Assembly (NCBI RefSeq): GCF_036634175.1
Contig: NZ_JAZIFX010000001.1
Location: 4,340,001-4,404,000 of the forward strand
Length of the DNA: 64,000 bases
Source of the DNA: Streptomyces sp. P9-A2
Lineage (GTDB): Bacteria > Actinomycetota > Actinomycetes > Streptomycetales > Streptomycetaceae
Reading direction: 5' to 3'
Shown here: piece after piece, positions 18,556 to 56,448 of the stretch
Position numbering within the stretch: the stretch's first letter is position 1
Layout: the number at the start of each line of letters is the position of its first letter
The notes under the pieces: model-generated
What the model saw: the letters and a program-made list of their open reading frames with translations, nothing else
Databases searched by the model: none
Told to the model about the DNA's origin: nothing
Translations under genes and position numbers: made by a program

Positions 18556-19407
18556 ATGCCGCCGAGGAGTCATGCCACCGGGCGACAGGTGCGTCTGGGT
18601 GCCGAGCTGCGACGTCTGCGTGAGGTGGCTGGGCTGAAGGCGCGCGAGGTAGCCGGGTTGCTGAATTCGACCTCGGCTCAGATCAGCCAGATGGAGCTGG
18701 GCTTCGCCGGTGTCAGCGAAGAGCGGGTGCGGCGGCTCGCGGCTCACTACGCCTGCACGGACGAGGCATTGATCGATGCGCTTGTTGCCATGGCGACCGA
18801 CCGTACGCGTGGTTGGTGGGAGGAGTACCGGGGAGTGCTGCCACCGGTGTTCCAGGACACCGCTGAAGTCGAGCACCATGCGACGTTCCTGCGGGAGGTC
18901 GTGATCACGCATGTTCCAGGGCTGCTGCAGACTGCTGACTACGCACGCGCGATCTACACATATGTGCATCCCGGCTTGCCCGAAAGCGAGTTGACCACCC
19001 GTGTGGAGCACCGGATGAAGCGACGTGCTGTGGTCGCAGGCGACAACGCGACCCCGTACGAGACGCTGATCCACGAGTGCGCTCTTCGTGTCCGCGTGGC
19101 GGACCGCAGTGTTTCTCGCGCTCAACTCCAGCAGATCCTGTACCAAATCGAGCAAGGACAGGCCAAGGTGAGGGTCATCCCGTTCGATCAGGACGGCTTT
19201 GGCGGCGCCGGGATCTCGATGATGTACGCGGGTGGTCCGGTCCCTCAATTGGACACCGGTCTTCGGGACGCCCCCACCGGGGTTGCCTTCATCCATGCGA
19301 ACGCACAACTGAAGCAGCTTCGAACGCTTTTCCTTAGAATGCAGGACGCGTCGCTGACTCCCACCGCGTCGCGGGACTTCATCCACCGCTTGACGAAGGA
19401 ACTGTGA
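18556..19407 (+). CDS. XRE-family regulator with DUF5753 (Scr1-like) domain
   Basis: A 283-residue protein. Residues 10-70 form a helix-turn-helix (LGAELRRLREVAGLKAREVAGLLNSTSAQISQMELG). The rest is the DUF5753/Scr1-associated domain: FQDTAEVEHHATFLREVVITHVPGLLQTADYARAI, LIHECALRVRV, and VIPFDQDGFGG. These proteins partner with DUF397 proteins and ATP-binding proteins in Streptomyces development and antibiotic control. The gene is less GC-rich than its neighbours, hinting at more recent arrival. It overlaps the DUF397 gene by 4 nt if the GTG at 19404 is used. Confidence 0.9.
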   Translation: MPPRSHATGRQVRLGAELRRLREVAGLKAREVAGLLNSTSAQISQMELGFAGVSEERVRRLAAHYACTDEALIDALVAMATDRTRGWWEEYRGVLPPVFQDTAEVEHHATFLREVVITHVPGLLQTADYARAIYTYVHPGLPESELTTRVEHRMKRRAVVAGDNATPYETLIHECALRVRVADRSVSRAQLQQILYQIEQGQAKVRVIPFDQDGFGGAGISMMYAGGPVPQLDTGLRDAPTGVAFIHANAQLKQLRTLFLRMQDASLTPTASRDFIHRLTKEL

Positions 19408-19616
19408 GGCGAGACATGACTGAGGCCATGCGTTGGCGTAAGTCCACTTACTCGGGCGGCGGCGACGGCGACACCTGCGTAGAGATCGCGGAGTCGCACC
19501 CCCGCATAGCCATACGCGACTCCAAGGCCCCCGCCCGCGCCGTCCTTTCCGTCCCCGCCCTCTCCTTCGCGGCCTTCGTCGAGCACGTGAAGCGGAACGC
19601 TCGACCAGGGGCGTGA
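19404..19616 (+). CDS. DUF397 family protein
   Basis: A 70-residue protein (66 if started at the ATG at 19416) with the standard DUF397 layout: MRWRKSTYSGGGDGDTCVEIAE, a middle IAIRDSK, and ALSFAAFVEHVK at the end. DUF397 proteins are small partners of the XRE/DUF5753 regulators and probably modulate their DNA binding. The GTG at 19404 overlaps the regulator stop, supporting translational coupling. Confidence 0.9.
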   Translation: MRRDMTEAMRWRKSTYSGGGDGDTCVEIAESHPRIAIRDSKAPARAVLSVPALSFAAFVEHVKRNARPGA

Positions 19617-20230
19617 TCCCGGGCGTTCAGCGGCCTCGCCGGTTCTCGACACAGGGGCCCGTTCCCGGCCGGGGCTCGGGGCGGGACATGTCGTTCCAAA
19701 AGCGTGAGCACTTCGGCCGCAAGTGTCCCAATGCCGCTCATCTGAGCTCTCACGTGACACTTGCCCACCAAGTGCTCACGCTTTTCAATAAGGCACCCGT
19801 CTCCGGCCCGCAACCACGGTGTCGGGAACCACGGCGCCGGGACCGCGGGAATCCGGTACACCACTCGACGGGCTGCATCGGACGGACGCTTCGGCGCTGC
19901 TGCGGGGTCGGCCTCCGGGGGACTCATCCGTAACGGGGCATCACCCAGGGGTATGGCCCAGGAGGTCCTCGACGGCGTGGATCATCCTCCGGAAGGATCT
20001 GCTTCCCTCCCTCGCGGCGTTCAAGCCGATCAACGCGGAGAACTTCGCCCGACGGAGGGTCTCCTTGCAGGACTCGCACATCACCGATTCCAGTCGGCTC
20101 CTGGCTCCCCGCTCGGCTTCCGGATCCGAGGGTGCGCAGGCGTCGTCGCGGACGGCCGGGTGGCTGCGGAGCGAGCCGGCCGGACGGACGCCTCTGGGCA
20201 CAAACCCGGTCGGCGCCCTATGGTCCGTCC
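19617..20230. other. 614-nt intergenic region with palindromic element
   Basis: No convincing gene. It contains the 88-nt palindromic repeat (19698-19785). On the minus strand an open frame at 20081-19941 could encode a 46-residue peptide starting MCESCKETLRR, but it has no recognised family and no clear ribosome-binding site. The last 150 nt form the P450 upstream region, without clear promoter hexamers. Confidence 0.5.
19698..19785. repeat. 88-nt palindromic intergenic element, copy 1
   Basis: Outer arms of 16 bp match perfectly (AAAAGCGTGAGCACTT at 19698-19713 and its complement at 19770-19785). Nested 9-bp arms GCAAGTGTC (19719-19727) and GACACTTGC (19756-19764) are separated from them by a symmetric 5-nt internal loop. 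At the apex GCTC/GAGC can pair. A related element of the same length lies inverted at 34454-34541; by hand I count about 68 of 88 identical positions. Confidence 0.85.
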
Positions 20231-34402: not shown

Positions 34403-34876
34403 ACGCATGTCCCCGATACCGCGGTCGTGCGGGCCGAGATCTGTGCCTTGATGAAAAGCGTGAGCACTCAGCAGGAAAGTGTTGTTTGAGCGCTCAGAAG
34501 AGCGCTATGTGGACAGTGTTGGCCGAAATGCTCACGCTTTTTTGGGTAGGTGTGCCGCATGGCGACAGCGTGTACGTCGGCAACGCGGGCAAGGGCGCGG
34601 CGCCGGCCCGAGGTGTCCGACGCCGAGCGGGAGTTCCGCGGGCAGGCCGCACGCACGGCGACCGGGGCTCACATAGTGGCCATGAGGGTGTGACGCGGGG
34701 CACTTTCCGAGTGGTCCGCGTCGCCCTGGGCATGAGCTCCCCTGCGCGGGTGCCCGGAAGTCTCACGATGCGATATCGAGGAGGCGTTTTCCGGGTGCTC
34801 GATAGAATGAGCCGACCGCGCCGGGCGCACCCGTGCGCACAGCGTGGGACAACGACGGAATGAGCGAGGAGCGCAC
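34403..34876. other. Intergenic region DUF5063-ask with palindromic element
   Basis: About 470 nt. It holds the second 88-nt palindrome (34454-34541). Toward ask there is TAGAAT at 34803-34808 as a possible -10, with no good -35. No gene of its own is supported. Confidence 0.5.
34454..34541. repeat. 88-nt palindromic intergenic element, copy 2 (inverted)
   Basis: Outer arms AAAAGCGTGAGCA (34454-34466) and its complement (34529-34541) match perfectly. The apex AGCGCTC (34489-34495), loop AGAA, GAGCGCT (34500-34506) forms a 7-bp stem. Its reverse complement aligns with the element at 19698 without gaps. Confidence 0.85.
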
Positions 34877-56158: not shown

Positions 56159-56292
56159 TGGGAAGGTTGAGGCTTCCTGATCGGTGAGGCCCTCGTTCGG
56201 GATTGCCGTCCCGGCCGGGGGCCGTATCTGTTTGCGGTTGTCGAGCTTGTTGCGGTGAACGTAACCGCCCGAATCCCGCCCCCGCAAGCCGG

Positions 56293-56308
56293 TCACTCGC
56301 ACGAGTGA
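56293..56308. promoter_or_regulatory. CACTCGNNNGAGTG palindrome, copy 3
   Basis: TCACTCGCACGAGTGA, a perfect 16-bp palindrome, lies about 135 nt upstream of the helix-turn-helix gene at 56158. Similar 14-bp cores occur at 18514 and 32653. Confidence 0.55.
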
Positions 56309-56448
56309 CGCGAGCCTTCCGGCGGGGAGGGTGGGTGGGCGGGTAGTTCTTTCTCCCGGTTCTTTCAGGAGGTCAGCGGCCCGCCGGACCCTCGCGGACA
56401 AGGACCCGGCGGACCCGGCGGGCGGACGGCTGCCGGGGCCCGGCCGCC

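Follow-up and report, generated by a model that had tools for sequence, protein, structure and literature searches.

What is an 88-bp, nearly palindromic element doing twice within the 64,000 nucleotides of Streptomyces sp. P9-A2 DNA analysed here (the window), and is it a non-autonomous mobile palindrome, a structured RNA or an array of protein-binding sites, the three options that the original prediction offered? The positions and the 88-nt length claimed for the two elements are correct (Table 1), as are the 68 identities over 88 ungapped positions between copy 1 on the forward strand and copy 2 on the reverse strand, and the identical 13-bp ends. The inverted orientation likewise holds, with 68/88 identities in the inverted arrangement against 56/88 in the opposite one. 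A two-arm pattern locates the element at those two places only (4 matches, both strands counted) and at none in 100 shuffles, while copy 1, aligned without gaps to the rest of the window, reaches at most 42/88 (mean 23.1). The comparative evidence presented below favours the third option, such that the element is probably a protein-binding DNA array that is linked to a TetR-like regulator and has multiplied in some Streptomyces, with a MITE-like repeat as the vehicle in one clade.

Table 1. Positions of the two 88-bp elements, their boxes and their flanks in the window; strands give the family orientation.
Feature	Position	Strand	Basis
Element copy 1	19698..19785	+ (family orientation)	97.6 bits with model R1; 88 bp
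Copy 1 outer left box CGTGAGCA, family columns 6-13	19703..19710	+	column conservation
Copy 1 inner left box TGTCC, columns 27-31	19724..19728	+	column conservation
Copy 1 central box, family type CGCTCANNTGAGCG, columns 38-51	19735..19748	+	column conservation
Copy 1 inner right box TGACA, columns 58-62	19755..19759	+	column conservation
Copy 1 outer right box TGCTCACG, columns 76-83	19773..19780	+	column conservation
Copy 1 with flanks still resembling the MITE-like repeat of the clade (degenerate)	19630..19830	+	similarity of L020 to L081 and L108, together -67..+133
Element copy 2	34454..34541	- (family orientation on - strand)	88.4 bits with model R1; 88 bp
Copy 2 outer left box CGTGAGCA	34529..34536	-	column conservation
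Copy 2 central box	34491..34504	-	column conservation
Copy 2 outer right box TGCTCACG	34459..34466	-	column conservation
Copy 2 with flanks, residual similarity to other copies	34407..34610	-	similarity of L026 to L030 (-68..+113) and L085 (to +135)

The two elements are members of a larger family, as covariance-model searches for further copies returned many. The 8.39-Mb genome contains the arm AAGCGTGAGCA 16 times and its reversed control once, and model R1, built from 11 copies, finds at least 14 strong copies there (61.7 bits or more), all of which cover model positions 1-88. With a broader, sequence-only model, the same genome yields 37 matches, both strands counted; the 14 strong copies account for 28 of these, and therefore 5 to 9 weaker places remain. 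Both searches of this genome scored 150 first-look candidates and their counts are lower bounds, while the R1 surveys of other genomes applied stricter filters and scored 72 candidates per genome (60 relatives) or 11 (392 Streptomyces). With those settings, no copies were found in the 60 other relatives at E 0.01, and at least 12 of the 392 sampled Streptomyces genomes, the window's own included, were element-positive, the survey having overlooked a degenerate site in genome G394. The exact box pattern matches 61 stretches among 84,980 species genomes, all titled Streptomyces, of which R1 upholds 55 at E 0.001, the pattern loci without such a match (L064, L066, L071, L078, L101 and L104) being left out. 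The resulting 90 element rows, from which L033, L034, L044, L045, L051, L052 and L055 were omitted as duplicates of named loci (G154, G166), comprise 88 distinct sequences after removal of 2 further duplicates, with L092 extended by hand to full length. Seventy-seven of these are 88 bp long, 5 are 87 bp and 6 are 86 bp, a distribution that is informative only for the model-found copies since the exact pattern itself fixes the spacing of the boxes. Copy number ranges from 1 place to at least 14 among genomes. In the S. flaveus copy L112 (6465-6552), the left half is now a near-perfect palindrome itself, as if one of its arms had been copied inward. A full-text literature search, mostly covering journals outside subscription, gave no description of an 88-bp repeat of this kind in titles or the openings of abstracts.

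The anatomy of the family is that of short fixed boxes separated by variable spacers. The conserved columns form boxes at 6-13 (CGTGAGCA), 27-31 (TGTCC, replaced by TGTTC in some species), 38-51 (CGCTCANNTGAGCG), 58-62 ((T)GACA) and 76-83 (TGCTCACG), in an order that is mirror-symmetric around position 44.5, and the A/T runs at both ends of the element are also well kept. These columns were first picked by eye from their conservation, and the pattern used to find many of the copies presupposes them, a bias that is removed in part by two samplings. The left flank of one clade repeat, used as a query against four genomes, returned 21 rows, of which 17 were used (the other four being further pieces of the same copies); all 17 copies adjoin an 88-mer that aligns without gaps, and their mean pairwise identity is 0.955 in the boxes compared to 0.763 in the spacers, 0.766 in the left flank and 0.749 in the right flank, a box-spacer difference reached by 0 of 20,000 column permutations. 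The same difference appears within each genome, with box and spacer identities of 0.973 and 0.821 in G166 (8 copies) and, at 3 copies each, 0.964 and 0.764 in the window's genome, 0.955 and 0.740 in G154 and 0.910 and 0.683 in G416. As the boxes are defined from the same family, the least circular version ranks the columns solely from 12 elements that lie upstream of a TetR-like gene (those of 86 and 87 bp and L132 being left out): in the MITE copies, identity is 0.953 over the top 20 columns and 0.804 over the remaining ones, or 0.913 and 0.783 when the top 37 are taken. Among the 14 strong copies of the window's genome, identities are 0.912 in the boxes, 0.877 in the central boxes and 0.603 in the spacers. 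In eight orthologous pairs of copies, partly found via the boxes, mismatches number 20 over 296 box positions and 102 over 328 spacer positions; a ninth pair was dropped for unequal length and those with known indels (L047, L058, L091) were not included. Boxes that are kept while spacers drift like flanks fit selection on a protein-DNA array.

A candidate for the bound protein is encoded beside the element itself. A gene for a TetR-like protein of about 205 residues lies directly downstream of the element in ten neighbour-table rows, two of which represent one strain. A protein search at E 1e-20 finds this protein in 8 of the 392 Streptomyces genomes, seven of which belong to the 12 element-positive genomes (Fisher p 2e-11), and the eighth, G394, bears its degenerate element in the same place. 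Element-bearing genomes reached via the named loci, and thus chosen for carrying the element, possess the gene in 10 of 11 cases; three of these were already counted (S. hirsutus as G154, S. ureilyticus as G401 and strain NWU339 as G166, the last without the gene), and all eight new genomes have it. In each of the 15 testable distinct genomes, the element lies 14-17 bp upstream of the TetR-like start codon, with the contig-edge locus L184 outside this set and two elements, of 86 and 87 bp, left out of the identity means. Four TetR genomes (G156, G263, G301 and G394) show one place only, seen as 1 or 2 broad-model matches of which the second is the other strand, compared to 13-36 matches, both strands counted, in the other 12; five controls free of both gene and element (G005, G007, G009, G012, G013) gave no broad-model matches, nor was an element found upstream of the distant homologs L148, L149, L150 and L186 at E 0.5 (best 14.5 bits, E 0.64). 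The Pfam family TetR_N matches two members weakly, at E 0.001 and 0.008 and in both cases below the curated cut-off, and the protein is predicted to have the TetR fold, its modelled structure (pLDDT 73) resembling TetR-family repressors such as 4za6 (TMq 0.63). The genes neighbouring this locus, labelled by eye, are often of the XRE type upstream and glycosyltransferase-like downstream. The linkage is incomplete, as four element-positive genomes (G166, G303, G358 and G362) have no ortholog by protein search and the window's genome has none either, its best profile match being E 6e-6 at 0.27 Mb. Despite this, the window's genome and G166 retain many well-kept copies, and in such carriers the gene may be a recent loss, or the array may be bound by a different protein.

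Fixed boxes and spacing, the conservation of boxes over spacers and flanks, and the linkage to the TetR-like gene together make a protein-binding array, as judged from sequence comparison, the best supported of the options originally proposed. The element would then be a double-stranded DNA site, a symmetric array of CGTGAGCA, TGTCC and CGCTCANNTGAGCG followed by their mirror image at fixed spacing, to which several copies of one protein would bind. We infer that this protein is the TetR-like one, which would control its own gene through the copy upstream. The site would have been copied to many intergenic places in several lineages, in the clade of the window's genome by riding inside a MITE-like repeat, and the dispersed copies would stay bound and act mainly away from promoters, perhaps as extra or titrating sites or as chromosome-bound ones.

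The claim of a non-autonomous mobile palindrome proved true of only part of the family, namely one clade comprising the window's genome, S. hirsutus, S. prasinopilosus and strain NWU339, in which long flanks are shared around many copies and the 88-mer sits inside a MITE-like repeat of about 300-400 bp with a common interior and terminal inverted repeats of about 34 bp by eye. In four copies (L022, L065, L076 and L115), which span 297-399 bp, each end fits a single terminal-repeat pattern with 3 mismatches or fewer, while other copies of the clade have one end only or degenerate ends; around most copies of other clades, terminal repeats were not recognised by eye. It is these shared ends and interior, together with the variable copy number and an intergenic placement whose avoidance of divergent gaps (see below) fits the purging of harmful insertions, that speak for a purely selfish, MITE- or REP-like palindrome, useless to the cell and with boxes kept solely for a transposition machinery. 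The boxes, however, occupy the middle of the MITE instead of its ends, and the same terminal inverted repeats enclose two shorter repeats near 1.485 and 2.040 Mb of the window's genome that lack the 88-mer (L158, 1500-1698, and L167, 1500-1805) and constitute a separate MITE-like family there, so that the 88-mer looks like cargo. The selfish reading also has to account for the eight orthologous, settled pairs that keep boxes over spacers and for the four TetR genomes whose only site seen is the one before the regulator gene. We regard it as unlikely on this evidence, and the protein-binding array as the better account of the boxes.

The right flank of the repeat resembles, by eye, the leader of the S. 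hirsutus TetR-like gene, which suggests that the 88-mer may have been captured from that locus. No consistent target-site duplication was seen by eye at L152, L167 and L168, and a 6-bp candidate occurs at L158. Inspection of 15 loci from 25 terminal-repeat places in 3 genomes gave no clear autonomous parent and no transposase. A RAYT/REP partner was rejected, as PF01797 (RAYT, Y1 transposase) does not track the element, being absent from the element-bearing G330 and G358 and present as fragments in the element-free G012. Carriage of copy 1 by plasmids or phages was likewise rejected, neither the plasmid nor the phage collection having a match. A second group of copies (L089, L109, L038 and L049, from NTH33 and G303) shares flanks from about -136 to +131 and a start-codon-like ATGAGCC remnant, with inverted repeats that by eye resemble the terminal repeats of the clade in opposite order.

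The placement of the copies bears on what the dispersed ones might do. In all 90 rows, overlaps between elements and called genes amount to 10 bp at most. For the 76 sites with usable neighbours (12 of the 88 have no usable flanking gene pair), the gaps are 33 convergent, 35 tandem and 8 divergent, compared to 27, 98 and 74 among 199 control gaps of at least 90 bp in the same loci, giving an enrichment of convergent gaps (p 4e-7) and a depletion of divergent ones (p 7e-6); these gap types are approximate, as the gene calls come from a rough script trained on the genes of the window, and the gaps of two-site loci are counted twice. Of the 76 elements, 19 lie within 150 bp of a start codon, and 39 end no more than 100 bp from a stop codon. 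Given that convergent gaps are preferred and divergent ones avoided, the majority of dispersed copies are not operators of the ordinary promoter type. It is conceivable, if rather improbable in our view, that the protein and its arrays form a lineage-specific chromosome-bound system of SlmA- or Noc-like logic, in which a MITE would have carried an autoregulatory site to convergent intergenic positions throughout the chromosome core, the spread copies being kept by selection for nucleoid organisation or division and not for promoter control. On the 8.28-Mb contig, the 14 strong elements are all confined to 1.70-6.97 Mb, with dnaA at 4.079 Mb, and 11 of them point against the replication fork, from which no orientation bias is claimed (two-sided p 0.057).

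Within the window, copy 1 is flanked on one side by a DUF397 gene (19416-19616) and on the other by what we take, from its translation, to be a cytochrome P450-like gene; copy 2 presumably lies between a 219-aa gene that follows a recR-like gene and an aspartokinase-like gene, again by the look of the translations. The DUF397 gene belongs to an XRE-DUF5753 and DUF397 pair (18556-19616), and the neighbour clusters of these two protein types hold 17 and 11 proteins, respectively. Such genes, at first sight a likely partner of the element, were rejected as one, since they make up 29 of 246 near genes (ranks 1-3) compared to 11 of 182 far ones in the same loci, a modest excess only.

The claim of a long hairpin was borne out for single sequences, since both copies fold strongly (z -5.1 to -8.9 vs shuffles, both strands), but the long hairpin is largely a property of copy 1, which matches its own reverse complement at 64/88 positions compared to 54/88 for copy 2, and the family pairs mainly through its short boxes. 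In a test on 73 sequences, retained from 77 of full length after a 92% identity cut, boxes 7-13, 27-30 and 38-42 are paired in 94-97% of cells without excess over column shuffles, because they are fixed, and spacers 14-26/63-75 are paired in 38.6% of cells against 38.8% in shuffles. Small excesses appear at columns 31-37/52-58 (38.2% against 32.5%, z 4.7) and 1-6/83-88 (81.3% against 77.4%, z 4.0), as measured against shuffles that ignore relatedness; they are what a hairpin predicts and count against the reading as a protein-DNA array. Rfam covariance models at their gathering thresholds match neither 88-bp element; the sole Rfam match of the window is the Streptomyces sRNA scr4677 at 56159-56391 on the reverse strand (77.5 bits). 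A covarying RNA hairpin is thus unlikely, its pairing stemming from short fixed boxes and its spacers pairing no better than shuffles, and the option of a structured RNA that was raised at the outset is poorly supported. On balance, the pairing pattern suits a multi-site protein-DNA array better than an RNA hairpin. That the element acts as a structured RNA or as a bidirectional terminator with A- and T-tracts at gene ends is very improbable, for its folds, its well-kept end runs, its slight pairing excess and its frequent position in convergent gaps and near stop codons are offset by long spacers that pair no better than shuffles, the lack of an Rfam match and the constant place of one copy just before the TetR-like start codon, which would be an odd one for a terminator.

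Several known systems share single aspects of the array. Autoregulated TetR-family repressors, such as CprB of S. coelicolor, share the TetR-like fold and the location of a palindromic site immediately before the regulator gene. The operators of this family are usually a single short palindrome, whereas the site described here is an 88-bp array of several boxes, amplified to many, mostly non-promoter places. The occlusion factors SlmA and Noc offer a likeness in the TetR family (SlmA), the many dispersed sites, the half-site GTGAG and the independence of those sites from promoters, the SlmA site being GTGAGTACTCAC; here, by contrast, the sites are 88-bp arrays, in 12 of the 392 sampled Streptomyces genomes, and four TetR genomes show a single one. 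REP/BIME elements, which are accompanied by RAYT transposases, are similarly intergenic, palindromic and present in many copies, but no link between PF01797 and the element described here was seen in the genomes named above. Correia elements of Neisseria, MITEs that carry protein-binding sites, are similarly short, non-autonomous and intergenic, with terminal inverted repeats and an internal protein-binding site (a putative one in the present family). The internal site here is nevertheless conserved beyond the MITE, being found before the regulator gene also in species that showed no such MITE, and no transposase was found for the repeat.

The family seems to capture the multiplication of a bacterial regulatory site, in one clade through a mobile element, followed by retention of the copies mostly off promoters. 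With one small regulator gene and one 88-bp site before it, the system would be compact enough to serve as a test case, and the genomes offer a range that extends from a single site, through ten or more, to sites kept without the gene.
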